35,065 nt of DNA from Verrucomicrobiota bacterium. Its GTDB lineage: Bacteria > Verrucomicrobiota > Kiritimatiellia > UBA8416 > SLMC01. Below, one piece after another: positions 12,708-32,800 of the stretch. Both the position numbers and the translations under genes were made by a program. Positions within the stretch are counted from its first letter, which is position 1, and every line of letters starts with the position of its first letter. The notes below the pieces were generated by a model. That model made no database searches and had not been told where the DNA came from. It worked only from the letters and a program-made list of their open reading frames with translations. The stretch is taken from contig JASEHE010000007.1 in the NCBI GenBank assembly GCA_030018915.1, forward strand, positions 1 through 35,065, given 5' to 3'.

Positions 12708-15137
12708 TCATGTAGTTCCCTGACTCGCGGATTCGGGCGCTCGGTCCGTGGCCGGTCCATGGTCGGCCGGCGGCGATGTCTCGATGGTCGGGGCCGCCTT
12801 GAGCGCGAAGTAGTAGGAGCGGGTGGAGGCGCTGGGCTCTACGCGCTCGATGAAGCCTTCGTTGCACAGGTCTCTCAGGTACTTGGTGGCCGTGTTGGGT
12901 GAGATGTTGAGGATTTCGATGACTTCGCTTCGAGTTAATTTCTTGTGCTTTTGGAACAGCTCGCGGAGACGGTCGCCCTGGCGGATGCGCGAGCGGCTGA
13001 GGAGGAAAACCTCCGCAGAGTTGGGCGCCGCGGGTTCGGCGGCAGCGGCGGGCTTTCTCTCCAGCTTCAAGCGGGCCGTTGCCGCGGCGGTTTCCTGGAA
13101 CCGGAGGTCCATGTCGGACAGGTCGTACCACAGCTTGTCCGAGTGCATGAGGCGCATGCGCTCGATCACGTTCTTCAGTTCGCGGACGTTGCCCGGCCAG
13201 TCGTAGGAGCGAAGCGCCTCGCGGAGTTCCTTTGACATGGTGGCATGGATGCCGATGCGCCGGCCGAGGTCGAGGAAGTGCCGGGCCAGCAGGAGTATGT
13301 CGTTTCGCCGTTCCCGGAGCGGTGGGATATTAATCAGTAGTCGCTGCAGGCGGAACAGGAGGTCTTTGCGGAACTTGCCGTCGTCGGCCAGTTTCTCCAG
13401 TTCCACGTTGGTGGCAGCGACGATCCTGCAGTCGGTCCGGCGGGTCTTGGCGCTGCCCACGGCCCGGATTTCGCCGGTTTCCAGGACGCGCAGGAGTGTG
13501 GCCTGGAGCCGCAGGCTGATGTCGCTGATTTCGTCAAGCAGGATGGTGCCCTGGCCGGTTTCTTCGAACAGTCCCTTGGTGGCGCGCTCGGCGCCCGTGA
13601 ATGCGCCCCGCTCGTGGCCGAACAACTCGGACTCGAGCAGGGTTTCGGTCAGGGACCCGCAGTTGACTGGGATGAACGCGCGCGCGCGGCGGCGGCCGGC
13701 GTCGTGCAGGGCGCGGGCCACGAGGTCCTTGCCGGTTCCGGTCTCGCCCGTGATGAGCACGGGCGCGTCGAGGTTGGCGTAGCGGATGATCGCCTCACGA
13801 ATTTCCGAGACGGCCGTGCTGCCGCCGAGAATCATGTTCGCTCCGTGCGGAGTCAGTCCGGCCGCCTCGGGGGGGAGTGGCGCCGACGTGTCGGCGCCCA
13901 TGCCTATCGGCGCCCTGACGACACCCGCTTCCTTGAACTGGCGGATGAGCCGCTCGGCGGACTGGCTGAGCCGCAGGACGTCGCCTTGCGACATCTCGCA
14001 GGCCAGCTTGAGCTCGAAGTCGAGCCGGCCGCGCGCGTCGTAGCGCTCCACGGAATTGAGAACGCCGGCGAAATGCCGCGCCGCGTTCGCGCGGCTGTCG
14101 AGCAGCAGATTGGCGCGGGCAAAGAAGAAATCGTCCATGTACTGCCGGTTGCCGCGCGCCTGGCGTATCTTGAGCAGGCGGAGCGCGCTGTCCGCGTTTC
14201 CGGCGGCGAGCTCGGCGCGGATGAGCCCGAAAGAAGCGAATCCCGCGCCGAAGATTGAGCCGCGCAGCTTTGACGCCTCGAGCCGGGCGAGCCGGAGCGC
14301 TTCGTTCGTGTCGCGCAGAATGAGCGAGTAAGCGATGCGGACCGAGTTCGGGACGTCGGGCGACGGGCGGCTGCCCGGGAGAAGATTCGCGTCTACTCCG
14401 CCCTGCATGAGGCGCAGGAGGGCAACGCCTGTTCGGAACGCCGGCCCGGCAAAGCGCCGAATTTCCTTTTGCTCCGGAGTGAGCTGAACAAGCAGCCTGG
14501 CAGCCTCCTGGATTTGACCGGTCTCGACGTGGTTGACGAACCGGACCACAACGGCGCGGTTGAGCGAGAAACGCTCGTCGCTCTGCCACGATATGTCCTT
14601 CAACTCGGATGGGGCGTCGGATGCGCGCCCTTGCTGCGCGAGCAGGAAGGTCAGTTCCCAGAGGCAGAACTTTCTGCGGGGCGAGTAGGCGGGCAGGAGT
14701 TCGAGGGCATTGCGGATCAGCTCTTCGCGCCGCGCGAGGTTGCCGATCGTCTCCGCGACGACGCTCTCCACCAACACGGTTTGCGCCAGGATTTCCGGCG
14801 GGGTCGAATCGGATACCATGTCCTTGATCCGGTGGAGCAGGCTTTCGGCGTCGGACGGTCTGCCGATCCGACAGGCCAACTCGGCCCAGGCGCTGAGCAT
14901 CAGGATCAGGACTTCGGTGTCGGCCTCTTTCAGGGGGACCTTTTGAGCCGAGCGTATGGCCTCTCTGGCCAGGCGTTTGCCCTGGAGGCATTCGAGGAGG
15001 GAAAGGAGGGCAGCTGGGACCGGTTTCAGGGGGCTGGGCATGTCAGCAAGGATGCCCTCGAGTGGAATATCGCTGGTGCAATACTTCTCGATGATGGGGT
15101 GAAGCTGTCTATTCTTTTGGACGGATGCGTCTGCCAC
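12708..15137 (-). CDS. Sigma-54-dependent transcriptional activator with helical-repeat sensor region
   Basis: The product has 809 residues from a GTG start. Residues 1-420 are a run of amphipathic helices, TPR-like ([39 protein letters not shown]), in place of the usual receiver, PAS or GAF sensor. The AAA+ domain has Walker A GETGTGKD (464-471), the sigma-54-contacting GAFTGA loop (511-516), Walker [10 protein letters not shown], an FRKDLLFRL arginine-finger region and WPGNVREL. The C-terminus (about 725-785) is a winged-helix-like unit, [25 protein letters not shown] with wing [16 protein letters not shown], where most such activators have a Fis-type helix-turn-helix. No phosphorylation site is visible, so control is probably by protein or ligand contact. 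A sigma-54 promoter lies divergently 280 bp away, making the secreted-protein operons likely targets. Confidence 0.9.
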
Positions 15138-15169
15138 GTTTCTTGAGCCTTTGTGCTGGTTTTGCGCTC

Positions 15170-15198
15170 ATTATGGGCGAACATTCCCCCAGTGTCAA
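15170..15198 (-). promoter_or_regulatory. Near-consensus sigma-70 promoter of the activator gene
   Basis: On the minus strand, TTGACA (15193-15198) is followed after exactly 17 nt by CATAAT (15170-15175). Transcription would begin near 15163, leaving a leader of about 26 nt before the GTG at 15137. This is the best sigma-70 promoter in the window and suggests constant expression of the activator. Confidence 0.75.
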
Positions 15199-15234
15199 GG
15201 GACCATCGCACCGGCCTGGGCAGGAAGATTCGGC

Positions 15235-15383
15235 ATGGTTCAAAGTTCACGGTTCAATGGTTCCCGCCTGCGCGCGGAAGCTCCGGCGGGCAGGCAAGGT
15301 TGCCTGCCTGCAGCTTGGCAGGCGGGTCGGAACCAGGACCCGTGAGAAACGACCAACCGTTGAACCCTGAACCGTTGAACTAT
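15235..15383. repeat. Nested inverted-repeat element A, copy 1
   Basis: The left arm (15235-15262, ATGGTTCAAAGTTCACGG onward) and the right arm (about 15353-15383, ACCGTTGAACCCTGAACC onward) are imperfect reverse complements built from GGTTCA units. Inside lie CCCGCCTGC (15263-15271) with GCAGGCGGG (15318-15326), and a perfect inverted repeat GGCAGGCAA-gg-TTGCCTGCC (15289-15308). The element fills much of the gap between the activator and operon 1. No coding capacity is evident. It resembles a small non-autonomous repeat; a related copy lies at 22691-22790. Confidence 0.65.
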
Positions 15384-15418
15384 GCCGACAGGGTTCAAAA
15401 CACAAATTGGCCCGGATA

Positions 15419-15437
15419 TTTGGCACGAACAATGCGG
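15419..15437 (+). promoter_or_regulatory. Sigma-54 promoter P1 of operon 1
   Basis: TTTGGCACGAACAATGCGG has the -24 element TGGCACG, with GG at 15422-15423. Exactly 10 nt later comes the -12 GC (15434-15435) within ATGC. This matches the sigma-54 pattern TGGCACG-N4-TTGC except for one base. The predicted start is near 15447, about 165 nt before the first ATG of operon 1 at 15613. The adjacent divergent gene encodes a sigma-54 activator. A small hairpin GCGGC-gcaag-GCCGC follows in the leader. Confidence 0.8.
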
Positions 15438-15612
15438 TATTTCCGCGGCGCAAGGCCGCAGGGACGCCACCCCGTGGCCACACGTTACGTGTCGCGGTGC
15501 AGAAGAGTTGACATGTCCGGCTGAAAAGAGCAAAGTAACAGACAACGTTCATGGAAATCCAGATCCGTGAACGATGCAAAGGCCGCAATATAAGCGATGG
15601 CGTAATCTAACC

Positions 15613-16245
15613 ATGAAAAACAACCTGTCAGATATCGGTCGTTTGGTGGTTTGCGTCTTGTTCTGCGTTTGGTTCTCATGTTCGGTTATGGGCGCGAGTT
15701 CCGAAAGCAAGCCAGCGACGCGGAAGCCGGTCTCGGCGCCGGCCGGCGCCGAGACGGACAAGACGGAAGAGGAGAAAAGAAGGGCGGAATTGACCGCAAA
15801 AGCGGACGCGGCCGGCGCCCAAATTGCCGCCTTGAACAAAGAGGAAGAGGAGTGCTCCGGCAAGCTCCGCGATGTCATGAAAGCCCTGACCTGGTTTACC
15901 ACCGGTGATTCCACTTCCATCACGAACAAAGGAATCGTGGCGATGCAAGAAAGGCTGAAGGAACTTCAGGCGGAGACCAAGAAGATCAAGGCGGAGTTGA
16001 AGCCTCTGATCGAAGCTTTGCCGGAATTTCAGGGACTGAGCCTGGCATCAAAGGACGGATACGCAAAGCTGGCCGAGCTGCGCGAGAAGCGAATGGCGCT
16101 CACGAAAGAGAAAGACAGCGCGGTTGCGACGTTGTGGCAGATGAACCGAAGGGAACAGCTCGATCGTGAGAATGCCGAGAAGAATAGGGCCGCGGCAGAG
16201 TCCGGCGCCGGTCAATCCATTACGAATCGGACGGAATCGCGTTGA
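15613..16245 (+). CDS. Small secreted coiled-coil protein, first gene of operon 1
   Basis: The ORF track starts at 15574, but the ATG at 15613 gives a clean signal peptide (MKNNLSDIGRLVVCVLFCVWFSCSVMG) and a 210-aa precursor. After a short Ala/Pro-rich stretch, residues 50-200 are two long charged helices (AELTAKADAAGAQIAAL, ERLKELQAETKKIKAEL, KLAELREKRMALTKEKDSA) separated by loops, as in an antiparallel coiled-coil hairpin. No catalytic motif is seen. It precedes the M4 protease gene by 42 bp and lies downstream of sigma-54 promoter P1. It resembles in layout, more than in sequence, the coiled-coil proteins at 22172 and 23017. It may be a chaperone, adaptor or anchor for the giant protease; this is inference. 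Confidence 0.75.
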   Translation: MKNNLSDIGRLVVCVLFCVWFSCSVMGASSESKPATRKPVSAPAGAETDKTEEEKRRAELTAKADAAGAQIAALNKEEEECSGKLRDVMKALTWFTTGDSTSITNKGIVAMQERLKELQAETKKIKAELKPLIEALPEFQGLSLASKDGYAKLAELREKRMALTKEKDSAVATLWQMNRREQLDRENAEKNRAAAESGAGQSITNRTESR

Positions 16246-16287: not shown

Positions 16288-19200
16288 ATGCAAACGGACG
16301 GAAGACGTTTTCGCCCGGTTGTCGCCGGACTGGTTCTTCTTGTTGCCGCGACATGGAGCTTCGCGTTTCGGGGAGAGGACCAGGCGCCGGAGCCGGGCGC
16401 ATGGGTCGCGCCTGCGCCAGCGGCCTTTGTGCGGCCGCCCGATGCAAAGGTCCGCGCCGCGGCGGCTGTCCCCGGGTTGAGGGTGCGGTGGGATGAGCGG
16501 ACCGGCCGACCGTTGTCGGTTGTCATGTCTGACGTTGCGGCAACCGCGAAAGCACTGGCGGTCAAGCGATTGAAGGTTGCCGGCGCTGGTGATTTCCGGA
16601 AGGACGCGATTGCCGTATTGGACAACGTGGGCAAGCTCTATGACGTGAAAGACGCGGAACGGGAATTCGCTCCCATGACCGACGATCTGGACGTTCACGG
16701 GTTCCGCCATGTGAGGGTTGAGCAGCGCCACGCCGGGCTCCCAGTGGTGGGCGGCGCGATGGTGGCACACTTCGATCGAGCCGGCAAGCCGTTTGCCGTG
16801 AACGGGTCGTACGTGCCCGGTCTCGCGGTGGATACGATTGCCGCGCTGACTGCGGAACAGGCCACGGCAGCCGCTCAGGCGGACCTCCAGGCAATGGGGA
16901 AGCCCGAAGGAACGACATTCGGCAAGACGCGCCTCGTGATTTTCGCGCGGACGAAGATTCCGGCGCTCGCGCATGAACTCATCCTGGTTTACGATGACGC
17001 GGCAGCCGGTCCAGGGAGATGGCGATATTGGGTGGACGCCAGGAACGGGAATATTCTCTCGCGGTACAACGATATTCAGACGGCGAGCGCGAGTATTTTC
17101 GGTCGTCTTCTGCCGGGGGAAGGCGGCGCCGGCGTGACGATTTCGGCGGAGCTGAACGCGTCCGTTTACAGCATGGAGAACTTCATCCGCATGTGGACGG
17201 TCCGCAACGACGGTGGAGGGCGCGTCGGCGAGATGTACAACGACGCCATTGACGCGGGGGCGATCGCGTTTCGCCATACAAACAACTGGACAATTCCGGC
17301 GCCGCGCCATGAAGACCGGGCCGAGGTTTCCGCCGCCAATAATTTCAACGCAATCCAGACGTACTATTCCACCGTGCATGGCCGGAGCAGCTTCGACGGC
17401 TTCAACGCGCTGGCTTTGGCGCGGGCGCACGTTGGCGTCAATCTTGTCAACGCCTACTGGAGTCCTACCGAACAGAACTTCTTTTTCGGCGACGGCGACG
17501 GGACGACGGCGAATTCGCTCTGCGTACTGGACGTCTGCGCGCACGAGATCCAGCATGCGGTGACGGAGCACAGCGCCGGCCTTATTTATCAGAACGAGTC
17601 CGGCGCATTGAACGAGTCGTTTTCCGATATATTCGGCGCGCTGGTCGAGTTCAATACGCAGCCGGACAATCGCGCGGCTTATCCGAACATCACGCCTGGA
17701 ACGGCCGACTGGCTGATGGGGGAGGACTGCTGGCTTACCTCGACTGCGCTGAGGGACCTCAGGAACCCGAAGAACGCGGCGACGGTGGGCGCGGGCAACG
17801 AAATGCCCACGTACTATCAAGGCGACTACTGGCACTTCGGCGCGGATGACAACGGGGGCGTGCACCGGAACATGAGCGTGCAGTGTTTCATGTTCTATCT
17901 CTTGTGCGAGGGAGGCTCCGGGAACAACGAAGGGCGGGACTACCACGTGCCGGGCATCGGCATCCTGGACGGCCGTCTGTTGGCCTATCTTACGCTGACT
18001 CAGTATATGACGGCGGACACCGACTATCGCATGGCGCGAGAGGCATGGATGCTTGCCGCGCTGGAAATGGACGCGGCTGGCGGCTATACGACTCACTACT
18101 ACGTGAGCGCCTGGGCGGCCTGGCGCGCCGTGGGAATCGGGAGTCCCGACTTGATCGAGCCGTATGCCGATTTCTATTCGGCCGGCCGGGTCGGCGTTGG
18201 GCCATTCAATCCGACGAACAAGACCTACACGATTTTCAACCCTTATTCGGTGGCCCATACATGGGCGATCGCCGCCGATTATTCGTGGGTTGTCATTTCT
18301 CCTTCGAACGTGACGTTGCCGGCTTTGTCGCGCACTAATGTGGTGGTATCCATCACGTCATTGGCCGCGACTCTGCCAGAGGGCGTTCACACCAACGTCG
18401 CGCGATTCGGGAATACGACCATGCCCGCGAAAAGCGCAACGCGAAACGTGATTCTCATGGCGCTCGACAACTATCATTGTGTTTCCACGAACTTCAGTTG
18501 GGTTGGCGACGCGAACGTATGCCGGAATGTGGTCCTGGACGACGACGGTGTCAGCGAGGCCCTTGCCGCGCCGTTCCCGATCAACTACTACTTCCGCTCG
18601 TTCACCAATTTTTATGTCTCGGCAAATGGGATGATCGGGTTCTACAACGAAGGCTTGGATGAGTGGAACAACGCGGATATTCCCGCGAACAGCCTGCCCA
18701 ACGGCATGCTGTGTCCGTTTTGGGACGATCTGGACCCCTCAGTGACTCCGGGCATGATTCGCTGGGGCGTGACCGGGACGGAGGCGCAGAGCAACCGTCA
18801 GTTGGTCGTGTCGTGGACTGATGTTGCGCACGCATCCGATAAAAACGCGCGGTTTTCGTTTCAAGTTGTCATCCCGGAGAGGAGTGGTGTCAACCCCAGC
18901 GATTTCGTTTATCAGTACCGCGAGGTGGGCCAGAAGCATGAAACGCTCGGCATGGGAATGAGCGCGACGGTGGGGTTGGAGGAGCCATATGGGGTGCTGG
19001 GGGCGAAGTACTCGCGCAACGGAAGCGCGTGGCTGGCGAACAACCAGGCCCTGCTGTTCACTCAGCTTCCACCTCCCGACTCGGCGAGGCCGACTGGCGC
19101 GATCAGCGTCTGGAATTGGACCACGTCGAGCGTGACGTTCGAGTTGCGATTCAACGAGATTGTGACGAATTTCACGTCGTCCGACGTGGTCATGGGCGTT

Positions 19201-22170
19201 TCTCCCCGGTCGGCGCCGTACACTGCGGTGATCGTCAGGGGAGGCGGCGAGCGATACCTGGTTGACGTAACAGGAATTACGGGATTAGGAACTCTTGTTA
19301 TCCGTCTGCCGGAGAATGTCGTTTTCGATCTTGCCGGCAATGGGAATGTGGCCATTGCGCCGTTCTTGTTCGTGATGCCGACGCTGCAAACGGCTTTTGA
19401 GGACACCATGGAGGAAGGAGTCGGTTTGTGGACACGTACGGACAAGAATTACGAACAGGTTCGTTCCGACGCGTGGGAGTACGGCGCGCCGACCTATGCG
19501 CTCGGGCCGCCTGGGGCCTACAGTGGAACAAACTGCTGGGGAACGGTGCTGGACGGGCCGTGTGACAACACTCCGGATTGCGTGACGAAGGCATGGTTGA
19601 CGAGTCAGCCCATTGCCGTGGGCGAGAACCCGGTGCTTAGTTATGCGGTGTGGCACGATCTTACGAACGACACGGACATTTTTGTGCCGCCTCCTGAGCA
19701 TCCGTGGATAAACTGGTATGGCCGGGTGGAAGTGGAGAATGGGCACGGATGGTTGCCGGTCGCCACGTACAAGGGCCCGTCAGGCGGTTGGTTGCGGGAA
19801 GAGCTATGGCTGGACAACGACCAATTCGGCAATCGGACGATTAAAGTGCGTTTTGTGCTTTGGCAATGCGCCGGCCCTGGATTGTATGTGGATGACGTGT
19901 CCGTTTTCAGTCGGAAGGCGCCGGGCTTGTGCGTGGCGCAGGTGAACACGGCGCCGACCCCGATTTCGCCGATCGATACGGTCAATATGGATGTCCGGCT
20001 GTACAACAGCGGCACAGTGACGTATTCGAACGTGTCCGGCTTGGTTTCCAGTCTGAGCCCCGGCGCGACCGTGAACAGCAATTCCGTTCCAGTGTCCTAT
20101 GGGACCATGCTGCCGGGACAGCTTGCCTGGAGTTCGGGGTTTGTTCAAATCGCAATGGGCGGCATAGGCGCGTTGACCGGACCGCGGGTTGCCATGACAC
20201 ATGACGCTTTGAGCGGCCTCTCATCCTGGTCGGATGCAATCTACCTGACGGTTTCTGGAATGCCGCCGAGTGAGAGCAGCAATATCATTGCCGTCGGATG
20301 TTCCGAGGGGGTCAAGAACTGGATGGGCGCTTTTCTCCAGGGTGATGGAGGGCAAGGCTCTTCGATCTTCCAGTTGATCGGCGCCGGCCCGGATGGAACG
20401 CGCAATCCTCCTCAGTTCGACGGTATGCCTTCCGGAGACGACCGCTTCCTCCATGGTCAGGGCGCTGCCTCCGCTGTCGGCCTTTTTGGGGAGGGGCCCG
20501 GCGCGCCTGCAGACTTGGGGCAATTCTTCAAGCTTTTCAAGCACAACCTGTCCACTAACGATCGCGTCTATGTTCGGGCGTGGGACAGCTATTCGTTCCG
20601 GGATTCCGTGGCCTACGGCGATTCCGATCTCTGTTCGATAACGAACTTGCCGGCGCAAACCAACGATTTTGCGCAGTGGATCGTGAATACTGTCATAGAC
20701 CCGAACAGCGACTACAATGGCGACTCAATACCCGACGCCTGGGATATTGAGCATGGCCTGGATCCGCGCAGACCGGTCGGCGAGCCTCTGACGAGCGAAT
20801 GGATTTGGATGTCGCATGTCGGAAAACGAGGCGCGGCGGACGGCCAATTCACCACGCCGGCGAGAGTTGCGGTGAAAGACCCGTTCCTGTTTGTTTTGGA
20901 CACGGGCAACGCCAGGATTCAGATATTCAATCGGAACGATCTATCCTTTGTTCGATCGTTCGGAAGCGCCGGCACAAACGATTCGCAATTCTCGTTTCCG
21001 GGCGGACTGGCGCTGGATCCGCGGCCTGGCATTGATCGGATTGCCGTGGCCGACACGCACAACAACAGAATTCAAATGTTCTCGTTCGATCCGGTCACAA
21101 CGAACCTTACATTCCTCTGGAAAGTCGGACAGCCCGGTCCAATGGGAGTAGGGGCCAACAACGATCAGTTTATGAACCCTGAGGGTGTGGCCATCGGCTA
21201 TGGAGGCAACGTTTATGTTGCCGACACGGGCAATGGGGCGCACGTGTTGGGGTGTCGAATTCAGGTCTACGACTCTTCCGGCGCCTATTTGAGGACCATC
21301 GGCCCCGGGCACCCAACCGGGAGCGCCGGGGGTTTCATGTGGCCGCGCGGGGTGTGCGTGACGACCAATGAAACGGTGATTGTCGCCGACACCGGCAACC
21401 ACCGCATCCAGGCATTCAACCAGTTTGGCGTATTCCAGTGGCAGGCGGGGACAATCGGCAACGGCAATCTCCAGTTCAACTCGCCGCGCGGCGTCCAAGT
21501 GGGGCGATTGGGCCGCATCTATGTGGCGGATACCCTCAACAACCGGGTGGGGGTGCTTGACGCTTCCCGGAATTACCTTGCCGCATTTGGAACGTCCGGT
21601 TTTGCGGTGGGTCAACTGAATCATCCCTATGATGTCTGGCCTGCCGCAGACACGAACCTTGCCTACGTTGCCGACACGTTCAACAACAGAATCCAGGCGT
21701 TTTCCGTCATTATTGACGCGGATGGCGACGGCATGAACGATTTGTGGGAGGATTTGCACGGCTTGAACGCGACCGACCCGAACGACGCCTATGGGGACCT
21801 GGACGGCGACGGGCTCGGCAATCTGGCGGAGTACCTCCTGGGCTTCAATCCGGAAAGCATTGACACGGACGGCGACGGTCAGAGCGACGGCGCCGAGATC
21901 GGAATCCCGAATGATCCGCTCTCAATTCCGCTGCCGCCAGATCAGGTTGCCCTTGTGAAACTAGGGTCCGGACAGATCGTGTTCCTGTGGCGGGTATATA
22001 TCGGCGCGCGATACGCCGTGGAGCGCGGCGCTGACTTGCGCAATCCGGCGGGCTGGACCCGGCCGGCCGGGATCATTACGGCTTCGTTCGATGGAATCTA
22101 TGTTTGGGTGGACGACAATCCGCCGAGCTCGGGTCCCTGCTATTATCGGGTGGTGAGGTTTGTGCCGTGA
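16288..22170 (+). CDS. Secreted M4 (thermolysin-like) metalloprotease with NHL and TSP3 repeats
   Basis: This 1960-aa protein has a signal peptide (residues 1-26). Residues 80-260 look like FTP/PepSY propeptide regions, followed by an M4 catalytic domain (about 270-620). The zinc site is HEIQH (419-423) with Glu443 in NESFSD; the catalytic His526 lies in DNGGVHRNMS, all as in thermolysin. Next come a beta-sandwich region, a nidogen-like segment (FYVSANGMIGFYNEG), an Ig-like domain (LRFNEIVTNFTSSDVV), a jelly-roll region (1033-1208, ending LYVDDVSVF) and a TSP3 motif. About five or six NHL repeats (1505-1807, VADTGNHRIQAFN) and TSP3 calcium motifs follow. The last 75 residues (YAVERGADL to CYYRVV) match the end of the 3370-aa protein. 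AAGGGGG lies 7 nt before the ATG. It is predicted to degrade or process external protein. Confidence 0.93.
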   Translation: MQTDGRRFRPVVAGLVLLVAATWSFAFRGEDQAPEPGAWVAPAPAAFVRPPDAKVRAAAAVPGLRVRWDERTGRPLSVVMSDVAATAKALAVKRLKVAGAGDFRKDAIAVLDNVGKLYDVKDAEREFAPMTDDLDVHGFRHVRVEQRHAGLPVVGGAMVAHFDRAGKPFAVNGSYVPGLAVDTIAALTAEQATAAAQADLQAMGKPEGTTFGKTRLVIFARTKIPALAHELILVYDDAAAGPGRWRYWVDARNGNILSRYNDIQTASASIFGRLLPGEGGAGVTISAELNASVYSMENFIRMWTVRNDGGGRVGEMYNDAIDAGAIAFRHTNNWTIPAPRHEDRAEVSAANNFNAIQTYYSTVHGRSSFDGFNALALARAHVGVNLVNAYWSPTEQNFFFGDGDGTTANSLCVLDVCAHEIQHAVTEHSAGLIYQNESGALNESFSDIFGALVEFNTQPDNRAAYPNITPGTADWLMGEDCWLTSTALRDLRNPKNAATVGAGNEMPTYYQGDYWHFGADDNGGVHRNMSVQCFMFYLLCEGGSGNNEGRDYHVPGIGILDGRLLAYLTLTQYMTADTDYRMAREAWMLAALEMDAAGGYTTHYYVSAWAAWRAVGIGSPDLIEPYADFYSAGRVGVGPFNPTNKTYTIFNPYSVAHTWAIAADYSWVVISPSNVTLPALSRTNVVVSITSLAATLPEGVHTNVARFGNTTMPAKSATRNVILMALDNYHCVSTNFSWVGDANVCRNVVLDDDGVSEALAAPFPINYYFRSFTNFYVSANGMIGFYNEGLDEWNNADIPANSLPNGMLCPFWDDLDPSVTPGMIRWGVTGTEAQSNRQLVVSWTDVAHASDKNARFSFQVVIPERSGVNPSDFVYQYREVGQKHETLGMGMSATVGLEEPYGVLGAKYSRNGSAWLANNQALLFTQLPPPDSARPTGAISVWNWTTSSVTFELRFNEIVTNFTSSDVVMGVSPRSAPYTAVIVRGGGERYLVDVTGITGLGTLVIRLPENVVFDLAGNGNVAIAPFLFVMPTLQTAFEDTMEEGVGLWTRTDKNYEQVRSDAWEYGAPTYALGPPGAYSGTNCWGTVLDGPCDNTPDCVTKAWLTSQPIAVGENPVLSYAVWHDLTNDTDIFVPPPEHPWINWYGRVEVENGHGWLPVATYKGPSGGWLREELWLDNDQFGNRTIKVRFVLWQCAGPGLYVDDVSVFSRKAPGLCVAQVNTAPTPISPIDTVNMDVRLYNSGTVTYSNVSGLVSSLSPGATVNSNSVPVSYGTMLPGQLAWSSGFVQIAMGGIGALTGPRVAMTHDALSGLSSWSDAIYLTVSGMPPSESSNIIAVGCSEGVKNWMGAFLQGDGGQGSSIFQLIGAGPDGTRNPPQFDGMPSGDDRFLHGQGAASAVGLFGEGPGAPADLGQFFKLFKHNLSTNDRVYVRAWDSYSFRDSVAYGDSDLCSITNLPAQTNDFAQWIVNTVIDPNSDYNGDSIPDAWDIEHGLDPRRPVGEPLTSEWIWMSHVGKRGAADGQFTTPARVAVKDPFLFVLDTGNARIQIFNRNDLSFVRSFGSAGTNDSQFSFPGGLALDPRPGIDRIAVADTHNNRIQMFSFDPVTTNLTFLWKVGQPGPMGVGANNDQFMNPEGVAIGYGGNVYVADTGNGAHVLGCRIQVYDSSGAYLRTIGPGHPTGSAGGFMWPRGVCVTTNETVIVADTGNHRIQAFNQFGVFQWQAGTIGNGNLQFNSPRGVQVGRLGRIYVADTLNNRVGVLDASRNYLAAFGTSGFAVGQLNHPYDVWPAADTNLAYVADTFNNRIQAFSVIIDADGDGMNDLWEDLHGLNATDPNDAYGDLDGDGLGNLAEYLLGFNPESIDTDGDGQSDGAEIGIPNDPLSIPLPPDQVALVKLGSGQIVFLWRVYIGARYAVERGADLRNPAGWTRPAGIITASFDGIYVWVDDNPPSSGPCYYRVVRFVP

Positions 22171-22171
22171 A

Positions 22172-22786
22172 ATGAAGAATCGAAGCGCCAACGCCAAGTT
22201 GCGCGGTCTCCTGGCGCCGTTTGCGTCCGCCTGGCGGGCGCATCATGGCCCTAAAAGCGCGTATTTCGCGCGAGAGCGTGAAATATGCGGGCCGGCGATT
22301 CCGGCAATCGTCATTGGGCTTGCCGTTGCCGGAGTCTTTCTTGCGCTCGCGCCTTTCCCGGCAAAGGCGGAAAAGAAGGCGGTGTCCGAGTCCGATGGCG
22401 ACATCGCCGACGCCAGGAAAGCGGAGAAAACGAGCTTGGACTCGAATCTCGCCGACATGGTGCGCAAGATTCTGGCGGTCAACAATAGATTGAAGAGCGC
22501 CCGAGATCGGGCAATCCGGAGCGACCAGGAAATAGCAATGCTGCAGAAGGCGATCACTGAGAAGCAGGCGGAACTGGAAAGAAGACTGATTCAGAAGCGC
22601 CCAGATATCGCCAAGATGACCGGCGAGCGGGACAAACTGCTCAAGGAACATGCGGCTATTGTCGAACGTCTCGCGGAAATCAATAAGGGAATGGTTCACG
22701 GTTCCAAGTCCACGGCCAGCGAGGTTGATCCCGCATGCGGGATCAACGATTCTCAGCCTGAAGACCTGAAGACAGAGAAACCGTGA
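22172..22786 (+). CDS. Small coiled-coil protein, third gene of operon 1, with repeat elements at both ends
   Basis: The ATG at 22172 lies one base after the protease stop, giving 204 aa; the track's TTG at 22160 is less likely. Residues about 40-67 (PAIPAIVIGLAVAGVFLALAPFPAKA) are a signal peptide or membrane helix, unusually far from the start. Residues 75-175 are one copy of a coiled-coil module also found twice in the protein at 23017: SDQEIAMLQKAITEKQAELERRL, then KRPDIAKM and LLKEHAAIVERLAEI. The segment before the signal is coded partly by palindromic element B. The last 30 codons (HGSKSTASEVDPACGIND onward) are coded by element A. The true gene may therefore have been shorter at both ends. 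Function unknown. Confidence 0.65.
   Translation: MKNRSANAKLRGLLAPFASAWRAHHGPKSAYFAREREICGPAIPAIVIGLAVAGVFLALAPFPAKAEKKAVSESDGDIADARKAEKTSLDSNLADMVRKILAVNNRLKSARDRAIRSDQEIAMLQKAITEKQAELERRLIQKRPDIAKMTGERDKLLKEHAAIVERLAEINKGMVHGSKSTASEVDPACGINDSQPEDLKTEKP
22256..22299 (+). repeat. Palindromic element B, copy 1
   Basis: TATTTCGCGC-gaga-GCGTGAAATA (22262-22285) forms a 10-bp stem with one G-U pair and a GAGA loop, followed by TGCGGGCCGGCG. The reverse complement of 22981-23018 aligns with it (TATTTTCGCGC, GTGTGAAATATCCGGGTTAGCG). It lies inside the 5' part of the coiled-coil gene at 22172. Confidence 0.6.
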
Positions 22787-22798: not shown

Positions 22799-22853
22799 CC
22801 GGACCGCGATGGGCGCATTGTGAGCGAAGATTGAGCGCGTAAACCGGACCGCG
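22799..22853 (+). promoter_or_regulatory. Direct repeats upstream of promoter P2, possible activator sites
   Basis: CCGGACCGCG occurs at 22799-22808 and again at 22844-22853. They lie roughly 95 to 150 bp upstream of the predicted P2 start, a usual distance for sigma-54 enhancer sites. The same sequence was not found near P1, so the assignment is weak. Confidence 0.35.
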
Positions 22854-22922
22854 CGTCGGTCTATCGTTGGTGATATGAGCGTCTGATTGTCCGTCAAGGG
22901 GTTAGCGATGCTTGTGCGCAGT

Positions 22923-22940
22923 TTGGCATGTATCCTGCGT
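22923..22940 (+). promoter_or_regulatory. Sigma-54-type promoter P2 of operon 2
   Basis: TTGGCATGTATCCTGCGT has GG at 22925-22926 and GC at 22937-22938, exactly 10 nt apart. The flanks fit the sigma-54 consensus (TGGCATG for TGGCACG, CTGC for TTGC). The predicted start is near 22950, about 67 nt before the ATG at 23017. It lies in a 230-bp intergenic region that otherwise holds direct repeats and element B copy 2. Confidence 0.7.
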
Positions 22941-22980
22941 AGCTATAGCAGGAGTTGAAGATCAGCCATCCGTACTGAGG

Positions 22981-23018
22981 CGCTAACCCGGATATTTCAC
23001 ACGGGAGCGCGAAAATAT
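22981..23018 (-). repeat. Palindromic element B, copy 2
   Basis: Read on the minus strand, ATATTTTCGCGC-tccc-GTGTGAAATAT folds into a stem with G-U pairs, then CCGGGTTAGCG follows. It is inverted relative to copy 1. It ends on the start codon of the coiled-coil gene at 23017, so it forms the end of that mRNA leader. Confidence 0.6.
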
Positions 23019-23853
23019 GACGCAGGGGAAGCCAATTGTTCCGGCGATGCGGTTGGGGTGGTTGTTTGTGGCGCTGTTGTGCGGCGTCATGTGGCTTGGC
23101 GCTTGGAACGCCGCCTCCGACGCAGCCGAACCGGAAGCCGGGCCGGCGGAAGCAGGACCCGTTGAAGCATTGACGGCTGAAGACATCAAGGCGCTGGAAG
23201 CAGAGAAGAAGACGCTGGATGGCCGCATGAACGAAGTGGCGGCCAAGATCATGAAAGCTTATGGGCGTCTCAGCGATTTGCGCGAACTGGCGTTCAAGAC
23301 GGATGCCGAGGCGAAGGCTGCGCAAGATGAAATCGCGGAGAAGCAGACGGCCATGGAAAAAACGCTGAAGGCGAAATATCCGCGGATCGTCGAAATGGCC
23401 CGGGCAAATGAAGACGCGATCCAGGAGGCTACGGCTATTCGCCGGCGACTCTCGGAGACCCAGATGAAGCCGGCGACTGGGAAGTCCGACTCTGACGCGG
23501 CGCAAAAGGAAGCCAAGTCCGCTGAAACCCTGCCGGCCGCTGACTCCAAAGCGCAGGAAGCCGAGCGAGAGACGCTGAATGCCCGCCTGCGCGGGATCGA
23601 GGCCGAGATCAATGCGAACAGCTGGCGTCTCCGCGACTTGCGCGAACGGAATCTCAAGACGGACGTGGAATTGAAGACGCTGCGAGACGACATCGCGAGG
23701 AAACAGGCAGAGTTGGAAAAAAAGTTGAACGCGAAATATCCGGATATGGCCCGAACGAACGGGGAGAAGGATTTGCTGGTCAAGGAGCATGCGGACATTC
23801 GCAGGCTGCTCTTGGAGATCGCCGCGAAGCTGGCAGGAACTAGACAGGGGTGA
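23017..23853 (+). CDS. Small secreted coiled-coil protein with duplicated module, first gene of operon 2
   Basis: This 278-aa precursor has a signal peptide (hydrophobic core LGWLFVALLCGVMWLGAW) and a short Ala/Glu/Pro linker. Two copies of one coiled-coil module follow. Copy 1 (about 60-145) reads LDGRMNEVAAKIMKAYGRL, then DEIAEKQTAMEKTLKAKYP. Copy 2 (about 190-275) reads LNARLRGIEAEINANSWRL, then DDIARKQAELEKKLNAKYP. Each looks like two helices joined at a KYP turn, ending in a second helix (EHADIRRLLLEIAAKL). The gene at 22172 carries a single copy. The stop is 7 nt before the ATG of the 3370-aa protein, so both are probably translated together. No catalytic motif is present; a structural or partner role for the giant protein is an inference from pairing. 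Confidence 0.8.
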   Translation: MTQGKPIVPAMRLGWLFVALLCGVMWLGAWNAASDAAEPEAGPAEAGPVEALTAEDIKALEAEKKTLDGRMNEVAAKIMKAYGRLSDLRELAFKTDAEAKAAQDEIAEKQTAMEKTLKAKYPRIVEMARANEDAIQEATAIRRRLSETQMKPATGKSDSDAAQKEAKSAETLPAADSKAQEAERETLNARLRGIEAEINANSWRLRDLRERNLKTDVELKTLRDDIARKQAELEKKLNAKYPDMARTNGEKDLLVKEHADIRRLLLEIAAKLAGTRQG

Positions 23854-23860
23854 TTCACGC

Positions 23861-26800
23861 ATGAAGCGACAAAACAGAACGACAAAGAAGCAATTGTGGC
23901 TGTTGGCGGCGATGGCGGCTTTGTGCGGCGCGCTGCCGTCAACCGCGCCGGCGTACGATCTCTATATCGGGCCGATACCGGACGGTGGCGCCCGGGGAAT
24001 CATTATGCAGCCGGTCGTGACGGCGACGTCCACGATCATCACTACGACTGCTGTCCAAGTGACGGTAGCGGCGCAAGGCGCCAATGGATATACTTTTGAC
24101 CACTGGGTGGTTATGGACTATGGGACGGGTATGGGCCTGAATAGCACTACATCGAACCCCGCCTATCTGCGGGGACCGGCAAGCAGCGGCAATGTATTTG
24201 TGGATGCCTGTTTCAGACCGGAGCACCGCGTCACTCTTGCCGTAAGCGGAGATGGCAGCACGACGCCGGCGCCTGGTGTCTACGATTACACGAACGGTCA
24301 GGTAGTGGCATTCATGGCGGCGCGGACGGGAAATAATTACTTTCACTACTGGACGATTGACGCCGTATTCTACAGCCAGAATGAATCAATCAGTATTACA
24401 GTGACCAACGACTTTGCCCTAACCGCTGTTTTCAAGGTGGAGAACCCCGACGACTTTGACGGTGACAATGACGGCATGCCTGACTCATGGGAGATACGAT
24501 ACGGGCTGAATCCGGCAATCTTCGGGGCCTACGATGACCCCGATAATGACGGGCTGCCCAACCTTCTCGAATACCATTTTTCAACGACTCTTGTGCACTA
24601 TGTGTCGAGCCCGATCCATGCGGACAGCGATGGCGACGGCATGGACGACGGATACGAATACTATCACATCGGCATCCCGGGCGCGCGGGGCGTCGTCGGG
24701 CTGGCGAGCAACATGCTGGCTATTGTGCGCGCTGGCGGTGAATACGGACCGAACGGCAATCCGGATGCGGACTACATCTGGAACACGTTGACCGGCTATG
24801 AAACGGGCATCGGACTCAGCAATATAAAGGAGTACAACGGGCCGGACCTGGTGGCGCCCGGAACGTGGCCGCCGGTGGTTGTGCCCAACGTGACAATGCT
24901 CGTCAATCGCTATGAGCCGAGTCCGTCCGATTCCGGCGATCAAAGCTATTCGGATACGACCGATTCGGAGGACGACGGTTTCGACGACGGCTACGAGTAT
25001 TCGTGGGACATCTGGCAAGGCGGTCATGAAGGCGCGCAAGTGGGCGATCCGCTCGGGCACCTTGTGCCCTACCGGTTTGGAATGGCGGCGTTGCCGTCCT
25101 CGGTTGTGATTGGGGACTGGAATCTAGACGCCACGCAGGATGTTGCTGTCGCCAATTTCGGGCAAGACAACGTCACCATATTGTTCGGCATCGGGCGCGG
25201 CCGGTTCGGCGGGCCGGCGCTCACCAACACCTTGCCTGTCGGCGCCGGGCCCTGCGCCCTGGTGAGAAGCGATATCAACGGAGACGGCTTCATGGACTTG
25301 GTGACCGCAAATCGCAACACGAACAGCATCTCCATACTCTACGGACTGGGGGACGGCAGATTCCTCAGCGCCGTGAACTACACCGTTGGAACCTACGTGG
25401 CGGGCGACAATGCGTCGTGCGTGGCCGCGGCGGATTTCAACGGGGGCGGGGTTGATATTGCCGTTGCTCACCAGGGCAACGACTGCGTCTACATACTCAG
25501 CGCTCCGGCTTTCACGGTGACTCAGACGATCCCGCTCGGCGCCGGCGCGCGGCCCTCATACATCGCGACGGGAGCGATATGGGGGGGGGCTGACCTGGTG
25601 ACGGCCAACTGGGGCGCCAATACCGTTTCTGTCCTGCGGAACAGCGGGGGGGTGTTCTCCGTTTTCACGAATCTCGCCGCGGCCGGCCAACCGAGCTGCG
25701 CGCTTCTGGCTGACTTCACGCATGACACAATCAACGATGTCGTAGTCTCCTGTTTTGGCGGCAGGGCCGTGTACGGCTGGAAGGGACTCGGCGCCGGCGC
25801 CTTTGCCGCGCCGATCGTGACCAGCCTTGGGGGGGCATCCAGTCCGCGACATATGGCGATGGGACAATTCGAAGGTGATGTCAATTGGCCGGCGCGTAAC
25901 GACAGTCCGGACGTGGCCGTGGCCAATGAGATCTACAGCACTGCTTCAATTCTGCTGGGCAGCGCATTTGACATGTCTTTTGGCCAGGATTCCGAAGTTG
26001 CCGCGGAGCAGGGTCCGTACTGGATCGCGGCCGGCGATTTGAACGCGGACAACCTGGACGATCTGGCCGTTGTGAACCGGAACAGCGACAGCATGCAAGT
26101 GTTTTTCGGCATAGGCAACGGACGATTCGGCGCCGGCGTTTCCTACGCCGCGTCGGCGCGCATCGTTGACAGACGGTTTAATCCCGCCGTTGCGCATGCT
26201 CTGCCGCCCGACAACGGAAAGCCGGACTATGATTTCATCTACAACAAGGATACGGCGTTTGTCGGCAGCTGGCTTACGGACGAGATGGAGTATATGGCGT
26301 GGACAACGGCCGCGACCAATGTGTCGTGGGCTGGGACGAACGGGCTGCTCCGGCCCGAATTTCCGAATCGCCGCCGGTGCACGCACCCGTTCCTCTGGGA
26401 CTGCGACAAAGACTTCCTTCCGGACGGATGGGAACTGGCGTTCGGGTACGATCCGTGGGATATAAACACGGACGACAACGACCGCAACGACGGACAGGAG
26501 AACCCGGACGGCGACTGGTACGCGCTGGGCCCGGGCGGAACCAATCACAACAGCCTGTATCTCGCCATCGGCTTCGATCCGCGCACCGCCTACGGCTGTC
26601 TGAACAGGCAAGAGCTTGTAACGTCGGCAAACAACGAGGAGTTTTCCAACTATCAGGAGTTGATCGGCCCGCGAGGATTCGCGGCCATTATGCCGAACGA
26701 TCCGGACGACCGATGCACGCACCCGTTCAGAAACGACACGGACGGCGACGGTATATGGGACGGCTGGGAATGGTACGTGGGCCTGAACGCCAAGAATTCG

Positions 26801-29800
26801 AGTGACGGTCCTCTTGACCGGGACACGGGGGGAGGTGACGGCCTGACGAATTTCGAGGAGTTCCAGAGCTACTACACGTCAACCAACGTTTGGGGGAATT
26901 GGTCCATTCTGACGAATTGGGCGAATAAACTGCGGCCATGCGACCCGTTTGACCGGGATACGGATGCTGACCAGGCTCCAGATGGCTCTGAGCGCGACGC
27001 TTTCAATTTCTCCGGCGGTATGGGAGTGTTGCGCCAGATAAGCGGTGAGGATTTTTACTATACGGGCGGCGGTCTGAATCCCTGCACGGTGGATACGGAC
27101 ATGGACTACCTGCCGGACTACTGGGAGGCTTCTTTTGCGGGCGCGGTGGGCACCAATGCCGATGGGAACCTCACATGCACAAACAGCGGCATGGATGGAA
27201 CCGAGGTCGACTACTTGATGGACCCTGACCGCGACGGTTTGCGCAATTACCAGGAGTATCTTGCCGGCGCGACGTATCACTGGCAATGGTCCTACAACAA
27301 CCCGTTTCAATTAACGAACGGCTGGAGATCATTCTACCAGATTGATATGGTTCAGGGCAGATACAATCCCTGGGATTTCTTTGACGTGCGGATGTCCGCC
27401 ACTCCGGCAAGGCCCTATGGAGATGCCATGCTCGGACCTGGCGGACGCGAGCCGAAAAGGTGGGATCCTCGCTTCTGGGCGGCGCTGCGAGTTCCTCCTG
27501 TCCCCTATCGATTCATCACGGCGGGCGAACCGATGGGGCCTCCGCTGGCCATCGGGGGTGCGGTGTTGTACAGCACGTGTTTCCCCAACACTCGGGATAC
27601 GGACGGCGACGGGATGGACGACTACTTCGAAATATATCACATGATGAATCCGATCGGCGGAGTGATGTTCGATCGGGTGTTGGACAAAATACGGGGTTCC
27701 CCAGATCTTCCGCTGGGTCCACCAGGCGGCGGGGAAGACCTGGAATTCGCTCCATGGATGAACGGGTGGCACCATCTGGATTGGGATCAGGACGGGCTGC
27801 CGAATATCTATGAATCGGTTCAGCCGCTTGCGCCGGATCCGCAATTCTACCATACGGATCCGTCCCCCTATTGGTTGAGCGACATCAGCCACGTCAAGAG
27901 CTGGGCCAGCATGTACTACTGGCTGGGCCCGGAAATGGGCTCCCTGGGGTACTGGTATTGGAACCCGCTGGTGCTTATGCGTGGGCCGAACGTTCCGTTC
28001 ACGCCGCCTGCGTACTTCTTCGATTTCGAGATGCACGAGGGGTTCGATACGGACAACGACGGCATTGCCGATCGCGCCGAACTCGTGGACACAACCGCAG
28101 GACCAGGCTCCACGGACCCGCTGACCGGCGAAGACCCTATCAAGAGGCGGGCGCTTCGGCTGAACGGACAGGCGGCGGCAAGGACACAGGGCCAGGGCTA
28201 TGTGCATGATCCGTGGACTGCATTCCGGGAATTCGCCGCTGAGGTCTGGGTGCGAGCGGACAATCCCCAGGCGGGTCGAGACCAGGTTGTGGTGGAGCGG
28301 CCGGCATTGGTGCCAATTGGCAATCCGATGTCCCTGACCCCTGGTCTTCGGCTGAATTTCCGAATCGCCGTTGATTCGAACGGATGTCCGTATGTCGGAT
28401 ACCATGGCAGCGGCACGGACGCTGTTTTCGAGGAAGCCAGGGCGCCGGTCGCGCAACGTTTGATTGCCGATCAGTGGTATCATCTGGCCGGAGTGTACGA
28501 CGGCCAGGCCAACGAGTTGCGGCTCTACGTGAACGGCCGGCTTGCCGCCATGAAGCCTACCGCGGAGATTCCTCACAATGGGTGGTATGGGGGTGAGTTC
28601 GGCAATCCCGATATCCCTCAGGCCTATATCTGGTCGTTCATGCCGATCATTGTCGGCGCCTGCGAGCGGAATCCAGGGGGATGGATCGGCGGCGTTCCAA
28701 TGTCGTTTAGTCCGTGGATGTATAATCGCGGGATTCCATGTCCGTGGCCGGGCATCTATCCGGGTCATTCGCCTCCCGACTTGGGTCTGTTTTTCGCGGG
28801 CTATGTTGACGAGGTCCGAGTGTGGAACGGGCGTCGAACTCAGGCTGAGATTCGCGGAAACATGAACCGGACATTCCGCCGGGTTGATGTTATGGCGGCC
28901 AACCTGGCGGCCAGACAGAGTGGGGGCAGCGAGCTTTTGTACTGCTATGGATTTGACGATCTTCCGGACGTTGACTATGCCGGGCCGGCGCCCGAAGGGT
29001 TCAATCTGCTGACCGGCTATCCGCACGACGGCAGCTATATGTACACGCCGTGGTGGGCCACAGCGCCTGATGTTTCGATGGTGTACAACGACTACAAGTA
29101 TGTGCCCTGGCTGGAGAACGTCGCAGGGCACTTACCTCTTGATCCTCCAGCCGATACGACACTTGTGTGGAGCAATCGGTATCCGAATACTCTCAATCCG
29201 TATGTCTATGTGTACGGACACGCGACCGAAGGCTTTTTCGAGCAGCATCCGTTCTACTACTCGCCTTTGGAGCGCGACATGTTGCCGTTGCGATGGGCGG
29301 TGGCGGAAGAGGACGTTGCCATGTGGGACAAAGGCGGCGTGCCGGCGCGCGATCCGTACGACAGCGACGGCGACACGCTGCCGGACGATTGGGAAATCGC
29401 GCATGGCCTGGACCCGCTGGTTGCCACCGGCGCCGACGGCGCGGACGGCGATCCGGACGGCGACGGCCTGTCGAACATATATGAGTACCTGACCGGCAAC
29501 GATCCGCACAGCGGGGATTCCGACGGCGATTCGATCCCGGACAGGGACGAAGACTATGACGGCGACGGCCTGAGCAACAGGGCGGAACTGAATATCGGTA
29601 CCATGCCCCACCGCGTGGATACCGACGACGACGGCGTGACGGACTGGGAAGAAACGACCGGCTCGACGGATTCCAGGTACAACGCGATCCGTCCGAACAC
29701 GAGTCTGCCGCCAAGCGGAATGACGGACCCGCTTGATGCGCTCTCGCCGTTCATGCAGCGGTCAATGTATTTCAACGGAAACGCGCGCCTGATCGTGCCG

Positions 29801-32800
29801 CCGTCGAATAAGCTGATGGCGAAAGACTGGTCGCTCGAGATGTGGGTTCGCCCGATAACAAACGGCGACGGCGGCGTGTTGGTGTGCCGGTATATCACGG
29901 CGCCGGTCCCCGGAGAATTCGGCGTCAACTATGAACTCGGCCTCTCAACGAACAGCCCGGCGGGCGCCGTGCGTCCGTATGTTCAATATGTCGCCAATGA
30001 CGGCGCCACGGTTCGGGTTGACGGCACGGGACCGACGGAGGTCACCGCCCAACTGCATAGGGTGACGATCCCGCTGGATACGTGGTCTCATCTGGCGGCG
30101 ACGTACGACAGCGTTGCGTACAGGCTGTCGTTGTACGTGGACGGCGAACTGGCGGCCTATCGGACGGACGCCACGGTGACGCCGCCGACGGTCTTCGGTT
30201 ACTTCACCGATCATACCGCCGATGAAGTGACGATTGGGGCATATCGGTCAATCGGAGCGATTACCAATGCGTACGAAGGCTATATTGACGAAGTCCGAAT
30301 ATGGCGCGGGGTCAGATCGGCCGCGGATATCCAGGCTCGGTACAACGCGCCGGAGGTTGTCCCGGGCGGTTTGCGCGGCGGCGACCTCGTGGCGCTCAGG
30401 AATCGGGCATGGGTTCCGAATGAGGGCTTGAGCGCGGCCGTTATGAGCCTGCCGGAGAATCAAGCGGCGCGCGTCTTGGTCCAATTCCGCGCGGAGCCGC
30501 CGACGCAGGGCATTCTGGCGTTGGAACGGGCGGGCGCTCGAATTATGAACTATGTTTCGCGGAGCGTGCGGCTGGTTTCCGCCACGCCGGCGCAATTGCG
30601 CGCCGCGCGGGACGGCATTCGCTGGGCCGACGCGCCGGCGGCGAGCGACAAGATTTCCGCGGACCTGTGCGTGGACGGAAGCCACGCGGCCAGGAAGGTG
30701 CTGGTTCAGTTTTTCGATGACGCGCCTTTGGCCGACGCGCTGGCGGCGATTTCGAGCGTCGGCGCGAATATCGTGGGAGAACGGAAATACCTCGCCTCGA
30801 CCTACATGGTTGTCGAGGCCGACGATGCCAAGCTTGCCGCGCTGGCCGGTAGCGACGCGACAGCCTGGATTATGAGGTGCCCGAATCGGTTGCCGTTCGG
30901 CAGCCCGGCTCATGTCTGTTCCGGACCGATGGTGCAGGGCCTGAAACTGGCGCCGTTTGCCGTCGTGGGCGATGGATGGGACGGGCCGGGACGGGGGTCC
31001 GCCGATCTTCTCTATTGCTTCATGAACGTGACGCCCGATCTGCCGGAGACGGCGGCGCGGCAGGCGGTCATTGACAGCATGAAAAAGTGGGCATTTGAGG
31101 CTGCCTTGTCCTTTACCGAGACGCCCGCGCAAGGCCGGAACAATTCCATTGATATCGGATGGTACGCCGGCGATCATGGCGACGGCGATCCGTTCGATGG
31201 GCCGTTCGGCGTGCTCGCGCACGCTTTTTTACCAAACGATGTCAATCCGGAACCGATTGCGGGCGATGTTCACTTTGACGAGGATGAGACCTGGAGGGTC
31301 GGCGTGGGAGCGGGCATAAGTCTTCCGTGTGTGTCTCTGCACGAACTTGGACACTCGCTCGGGATGGATCATTCCACCGATCCTGATGCGATTATGTTCC
31401 CGTTCTACCAGGATGTGGCGGATCCTCAGTTGACACAGGACGACATTGACGGCATTCAGTCCATCTACGGTTCTCCCGTGGGGCGCGGCGTGAGCACTTC
31501 GTTCCGGTTCGACGACGGCGGAACGACGGCGGAAGATTTCGGTGAGCCGCAAGACTGGCTGAATGACTGGGCGTCCGCCGCAGTGCTGGATGGGTGCGCG
31601 TTTGCCACGAACCAGTTCGCGCCGTTGGACAAGGATTCGGACGGAGATGGCATGCCGGATTTGTGGGAGATGGCGCATGGACTGGATCCGTACGGCGCCA
31701 CGAGCCCCAATGGGGCATGGGGAGACCCGGACCGGGACGGCCTGAACAACATTTCGGAGTATTGGGCCGGCACGGACCCGATGGATTCGGACAGCGACAA
31801 TGACGGCTTTGGCGATTATGACAGCCGCAGCAGCCCGAACGCGAGGACCTGGGGCGAGATGTACGACGACGGCGACGGCATACCGGACGAGTGGGAAATG
31901 CTCTATCCGGGCCCCGCGCCGACCACGGGCAAACGGGGGCTGGACCCGGCCTACTACGACGCCCATCTCGATCCGGATGAAGACGGCTGGAGCAACTACG
32001 CGGAGTATATGGGTTCCTATCTCGATGCCACCCGGAACCTGGTTCGCAGTTCCGATCCGTTGAATCCGGCAAACTATCCGGAACCGCTCCTGACCTTGCA
32101 TGCGCGGTACCATGGCGCGCGAGGGAATATGATCGAAGACGTATTGGCGCAAGGCGCACAGATTCATATTGACTTCTATACCACTGCCGCGATGGACGGC
32201 TTCCCGGTCGGCGCGTTGAACATGACGACGGCGTCGAGCCAGACGCGCGCGCTGACGACCGGTCACCTCGTTGAGGGAACGAACTATCTATTCTGCTATC
32301 TCGATCTGGACGTGAACGGCCAATGGGATCCGATAAACGAGCCGGCCGGCATACCGACGGAACAACCGTTGATCGGGTGGGACGATTCGAACGACATCGA
32401 GATCGGGCTGACGGACAGTCAGCCGGCCCGGCCTCGTTTCGGCTGGGGCGCCGTCACGACCGCCGTGTATCGTATCGAAATAAAGCAGGGCGCGACAACC
32501 GTGTTCACTCGACTCATGAATGCGCCGCGCAACTATGTTCATGAGGGCGACTACCTGTATGCGGGCCTGTCCGCCCTGGCCAGCAACAACAACGCGTACA
32601 CCTGCCTGATCTACACGAACGCCGACTTCTATGGGCACAAAGAATGGCTGTACTATACCTACGCGATCAAGTTCGTGGAAACTCCGCCGCTGTCGCGGCC
32701 GTCGCTCTACGGGCACGATTGGACGTATCCCTATGCCAGAAACGTCATGGAGTGGACCATGGACGCGAATTCCACGAGATACAGCATGGATATTGCCGCC

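Follow-up and report, generated by a model that had tools for sequence, protein, structure and literature searches.

The window analysed here, a stretch of 35,065 nucleotides from a Verrucomicrobiota bacterium, carries on its minus strand (12711-15137) a gene for a sigma-54 activator (bEBP) of 809 aa and, divergent from it, an operon for exported proteins preceded by the sequence TTTGGCACGAACAATGCGG (15419-15437, plus strand), a predicted -24/-12 sigma-54 promoter. The initial annotation had proposed that this site faces a secreted-protein operon, and this is indeed the arrangement found: a gene for a small exported protein (15613-16245, plus strand, 210 aa), which by its translation has a signal peptide and is probably coiled-coil and for which no trusted family match was found, is followed by a gene for a secreted M4 (thermolysin-type) protease of 1960 aa with NHL repeats (16288-22170, plus strand; PF07504, PF01447, PF02868, PF01436). 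This first unit closes with a gene (22172-22786, plus strand) for a small protein of 204 aa that is either exported or anchored in the membrane and is probably coiled-coil. A second unit, with a predicted promoter at 22923 and an operon at 23017-33973, encodes a small exported protein of 278 aa that is probably coiled-coil as judged from its translation (23017-23853, plus strand) and a secreted protein of 3370 aa with a matrixin (M10) domain (PF00413), LamG (PF13385) and TSP3 (PF18884) (23861-33973, plus strand). The 22172-22786 protein is 41% identical to the small protein of unit 2 over 107 aa, and the latter holds two copies of a repeat from the former; these small exported, probably coiled-coil proteins have no database family and are repeatedly paired with giant secreted proteins. 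An Rfam search of the window returned no matches.

The divergent neighbour had been described as a GAFTGA activator, and its product does possess a GAFTGA-type sigma-54 activation domain (PF00158, 203 bits, E=2.9e-60), together with AAA_lid_14 and HTH_24, so that the sigma-54 interaction AAA+ domain, the Walker A/B motifs and the GAFTGA motif by which a bEBP is recognised are all present. In an AlphaFold2 model for which 14 orthologues were used (mean pLDDT 82), residues 14-403 form an entirely helical repeat region, followed by the AAA+ domain (432-690), structurally closest to FleQ, FlrC and NtrC1, and by a winged helix (717-779); the isolated C-terminal domain is likewise confidently predicted as a winged helix, with MarR proteins as its nearest solved folds. 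No Pfam TPR match was obtained in the helical region, and therefore "TPR-like" would be a description only. A search of the activator for HTH_8 (Fis-type) gave no match, HTH_24 standing in its place, and the protein thus falls outside the HTH_8-type (type I) bEBPs of the scheme of Francke et al. 2011 (PMC3162934). This scheme distinguishes bEBPs with HTH_8 C-termini, with an N-terminal DNA-binding domain (PTS type) or with none, and a C-terminal winged helix is not among its DNA-binding types (PMC3162934). Against TIGR02915, the PrsR model, the activator reaches 245 bits, the cut-off being 502.6. The gene's own sigma-70 promoter, as earlier predicted, is recognisable at 15170-15198 on the minus strand, where TTGACA (15198-15193), a 17-bp spacer and CATAAT (15175-15170) agree with the consensus at 11 of 12 positions.

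At the sigma-54 site itself the GG-N10-GC spacing (GG at 15422-15423, ten bases, GC at 15434-15435) and the full TGGCACG -24 element were confirmed exactly in sequence and coordinates, and since a C sits at -12 the transcript is predicted to start at 15447. Relative to the consensus the site reads TTGGCACG-N4-ATGC, with one mismatch, in the -12 element (ATGC, consensus TTGC). A consensus-weighted scan of all positions ranked it first among sigma-54 matches on both window strands, 0.35 equal or better matches per 35 kb (both strands) being expected by chance in simulated sequence with the window's dinucleotide make-up, and a weight matrix built solely from other genomes scored it at 16.3. It had been suggested that a genome scan would reveal how rare such a score is; the site is the window's top match, but the 2.1-Mb host genome contains TGGCACG-N5-TGC four times (exact matches) and TGGCAYG-N5-TGC seven times, against six for the backwards pattern. 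The genome-wide count was accordingly rejected as proof, and because it matches the reversed control the score is not decisive, so that location and conservation must carry the claim. The absence of sigma-54, which would have been fatal to the prediction, is excluded by a complete rpoN gene with the RpoN box ARRTIAKYR. Taken alone, the sequence of the site is weak evidence, whereas the comparative evidence is convincing: 15419-15437 is very probably a real sigma-54 switch used by the neighbouring activator for very large secreted proteins.

About 14 genomes encode near full-length orthologues of the activator, 41-60% identical; a single one of these genomes falls outside the order of the host. 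This winged helix was found in 10 of 289 genomes of the phylum, mostly from that order; the recognition helix SPNTATKDL is near-invariant among orthologues. At orthologous loci the divergent intergenic region mostly carries a sigma-54 site directed away from the activator gene. When 13 such regions (window included) were each compared with 500 dinucleotide shuffles, with estimated gene starts as borders, a significant site lay on the expected strand in 11 (p <= 0.04) and on the opposite strand in one, conservation which backs both the predicted regulator-target pair and its orientation. At the majority of these loci the operon divergent from the activator comprises a gene for a small exported coiled-coil-like protein, genes similar to 15613-16245 occupying the orthologous place in relatives, followed by one for a giant exported protein. 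The latter is in many cases a protease, of the M4 type in the window and at L048 and of the S8 type at L043, L047 and L052; L044 and L046 have LamG/TSP3 proteins. One genome (G002) has kept the activator without the divergent giant-protein operon or the sigma-54 site.

Alignment of the divergent intergenic regions revealed a conserved block, TATGNGCGCAT-TATGNGCG, consisting of two direct repeats with an 11-bp period and found at 12 loci, window included. The 16 copies compared show no variation at positions 3, 4, 9 and 10, and 15 of them have A at position 21; because this A mirrors the invariant A at position 10 the block is read as direct repeats. A palindromic reading was considered and found weaker, the conserved A21 and the poorly conserved end fitting the direct register. 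In the window the block is TTTGCGCTCAT-TATGGGCGA (15161-15180, plus strand). This candidate enhancer (UAS), assigned to the activator, precedes the sigma-54 site by 259 bp; it scores 20.9 with the weight matrix, matches the consensus with zero mismatches and covers the -10 CATAAT of the activator's sigma-70 promoter. A motif model trained on 11 relatives, with the window excluded, placed its best match in the whole host genome at 15162-15182; candidates are pre-filtered in this genome-wide search, and two of the host's three sites escaped it, to be recovered later by weight matrix and pattern. Perfect consensus copies number exactly three in the 2.1-Mb genome, the next-best having two mismatches and lying near control level; this three-copy consensus was drawn up after the sites had been seen, whereas the weight matrix that located them was not. 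All three sit 115-283 bp upstream of sigma-54 sites, that is, of three of the seven TGGCAYG-type sites, and the chance that three of seven such sites fall no more than 300 bp downstream from three points of a 2.1-Mb genome is about 3e-10 (7 choose 3 times (900/4.24 million) cubed). Among relatives, a sigma-54 site is absent beside most motif matches outside the training set.

A bEBP enhancer is expected to lie ~100 bp or more upstream of its promoter and to be bound by the activator; the candidate enhancers in the window are 259 and 115 bp upstream of their promoters. Enhancer-promoter distances are mostly 106-123 bp and are longer at unit 1 (259), at the copy on host contig C132 (283) and at L051 (about 290). 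In unit 1 the gap holds a dispersed-repeat-like segment (15238-15400), from which pieces of 24-54 bp recur at seven other places in the genome, and an inserted repeat may be the simplest reading of the 259-bp spacing. This segment includes GGTTCAAAGTTCACGGTTCAA and pieces related to it, copied only in part at those seven places; a repeat search within 15140-15612 itself found nothing beyond one 12-nt inverted repeat.

Copies of the motif also occur away from the activator gene. The second in the window, GATGGGCGCAT-TGTGAGCGA (22808-22827, plus strand; weight-matrix score 20.4, zero mismatches to the consensus), is a candidate enhancer 115 bp upstream of a second predicted sigma-54 promoter, TTGGCATGTATCCTGCG (22923-22939, plus strand), and this pair gives a composite score of 31.5, whereas the highest value obtained from 40 simulated sequences was 21.7. 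The third host copy, at C132:60546, lies 283 bp upstream of TTGGCACGCTTGCTGCG. At L047, in a related genome, a near-perfect sigma-54 site has a second copy of the motif about 110 bp ahead of it; this pair stands before a second unit of small and giant genes, with no activator gene nearby. None of these three copies (22808, C132 and the second unit of L047) has an activator -35 opposite. In G010, where no orthologue was detected, one enhancer and sigma-54 pair 119 bp apart precedes an exported-protein gene (L178 9250-9400, G010:C285), and either the activator gene is missing from the MAG or the motif is read by another protein. A strong new match to enhancer and promoter at L115 (G016) was not counted as independent, because the activator locus of G016 is broken and this match may simply belong to its other half. 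The initial annotation missed the enhancer, unit 2 (22808-33973), the C132 unit and the activator's atypical DNA-binding domain; the motif is newly recognised here and is the likely enhancer, a candidate for binding by the activator. The arrangement, including the candidate activator-binding motif, recurs across one bacterial order.

The C132 copy (G000:C132:60267-60563; L057 8267-8566) is located between the gene for an FHA-domain sigma-54 activator and divergent exported-protein genes, one of them PEP-CTERM-like. This FHA-domain activator has a Fis-type HTH, and its divergent operon bears the motif of the winged-helix activator; cross-talk or a cascade between the two is possible.

From the sequence elements, domains, conservation and co-occurrence observed at these loci we infer a mechanism in which the activator would be expressed from its own sigma-70 promoter and would bind, through its C-terminal winged helix, the two head-to-tail 11-bp repeats. 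Once bound, it would loop the DNA to RNA polymerase-sigma-54 at 15420, where its GAFTGA loop and ATP hydrolysis would remodel the polymerase and open the promoter of the small exported protein and the giant M4 protease. Because the repeats cover the -10 of the activator, the bound protein should repress its own gene while activating the divergent operon; the helical N-terminus presumably receives the signal. The same activator would switch on the second operon of the window (promoter 22923) and probably the one on C132. We consider it probable that the divergent activator acts in this way, binding the tandem repeats, driving the 15419 promoter, repressing its own gene and controlling the second operon and probably C132. 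With rather less assurance, we lean towards the wider view that these proteins constitute a lineage-specific activator class (helical sensor, AAA+, MarR-like winged helix) that acts on head-to-tail 11-bp repeats, as opposed to the inverted repeats of Fis-type domains, represses its own sigma-70 promoter and governs a small regulon of giant exported proteins (proteases, adhesin-like).

The overlap between the candidate enhancer and the sigma-70 -10 implies that part of the conservation seen at activator genes could reflect promoter function. An improbable extension of this idea is that the 11-bp motif is no more than the -10/discriminator of the housekeeping promoter from which the activator is expressed, with a real sigma-54 promoter and an activator that binds elsewhere: the motif overlaps the CATAAT of the TTGACA-N17-CATAAT promoter, and every training copy adjoins an activator gene. 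Nevertheless, the copies at 22808, C132:60546 and the second unit of L047 are not promoters of this activator and yet precede sigma-54 sites, and a general -10 would occur at hundreds of genes, as opposed to three perfect copies in 2.1 Mb. That the sigma-54 site works but is driven by another host activator (five other matches exist, for example the FHA-domain protein on C132) appears slightly less probable still. Such activators are encoded in the genome, one copy of the enhancer is situated in the region separating the FHA activator from its divergent operon, and G010 has the enhancer and promoter pair with no orthologue detected; in many genera of the order, however, it is this activator gene that is accompanied by the motif and the sigma-54 site, and the DNA-reading helix is near-invariant wherever the motif is conserved.

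It would be more surprising if the sigma-54-like sequence were a chance match and the operon used another promoter, a reading that we regard as very improbable. The genome count no higher than its reversed control, the -12 element ATGC instead of TTGC and the location of some host matches inside genes (e.g. mreB) speak in its favour; position and strand are nonetheless conserved across orthologous loci, and a search for a forward sigma-70 promoter in 15100-15650 found none. Control of the 15419 promoter by the divergent activator through the direct repeats is the preferred reading.

In the NtrC-type paradigm (glnA-ntrBC), a single binding region can repress the activator's own sigma-70 promoter and at the same time enhance a sigma-54 promoter, and the candidate enhancer described here similarly overlaps the activator's own sigma-70 promoter. 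NtrC, however, has a receiver domain and a Fis-type HTH dimer that acts on inverted repeats, in contrast to the MarR-like winged helix and 11-bp direct repeats of this system. Winged helix proteins of the OmpR/PhoB type bind head to tail on tandem 11-bp direct repeats and act with sigma-70; the spacing is shared, whereas the winged helix of the present protein is joined to a sigma-54 AAA+ activator and has MarR proteins as structural neighbours. The PrsR/PEP-CTERM regulon (Haft et al. 2006, PMC1569441) is also comparable: there a sigma-54 activator goes with enhancer and sigma-54 motifs that precede the genes of a variety of exported surface proteins, and here too a candidate enhancer motif and a sigma-54 motif stand ahead of exported-protein genes. 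PrsR differs in its response-regulator receiver, its Fis-type DNA-binding domain and its partners PrsK/PrsT, the present activator combining a winged helix with an N-terminus of helical repeats. The targets differ as well, being giant proteases or adhesin-like proteins in the present case. One-component bEBPs of Desulfovibrio can be divergent from a sigma-54 operon with predicted sites upstream, e.g. DVU3142/ohc genes (PMC4641369); those regulons have other targets and other motifs, and the available part of that article describes no MarR-like winged helix on phased direct repeats.

A sigma-54 activator beside its divergent target is a classical arrangement, and exported proteins are known to be under sigma-54 control, as in the PrsR/PEP-CTERM system (PMC1569441). 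Control of the "bacterial exterior" is an established theme (PMC3162934), which is here extended to giant secreted proteins; the literature searches returned no report on the regulation of such proteins. The present analysis turns a single promoter guess into a small regulon in uncultured bacteria, with regulator, enhancer, promoters and cargo named, and suggests that the Fis-type domain usual in sigma-54 activators can be replaced by a winged helix that acts on phased direct repeats.

In the host, the type II secretion regions contained no convincing sigma-54 site except before the gene for a 2564-aa exported protein on C111. This strong site, ATGGCACGGCGGATGCT at L121 9386 (G000:C111:29386), lies immediately ahead of that gene, beside GspK/pseudopilin-like genes and without the enhancer motif. 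In two other genomes the activator has paralogues, L053 (G011:C70) and L055 (G005:C105), that are transcribed divergently from a pseudopilin/type II secretion-like operon, and the family may therefore govern both secretion machine and cargo. The regions upstream of these two paralogues contain a sigma-54 site and an AT-rich block of another sequence, TATAATAAGAT CATAATAGAAC, which seems to repeat every 11 bp. Two paralogues, L054 (G006:C21) and L055, are broken by in-frame TGA codons, one and two respectively, and decaying copies of the gene thus seem to exist.
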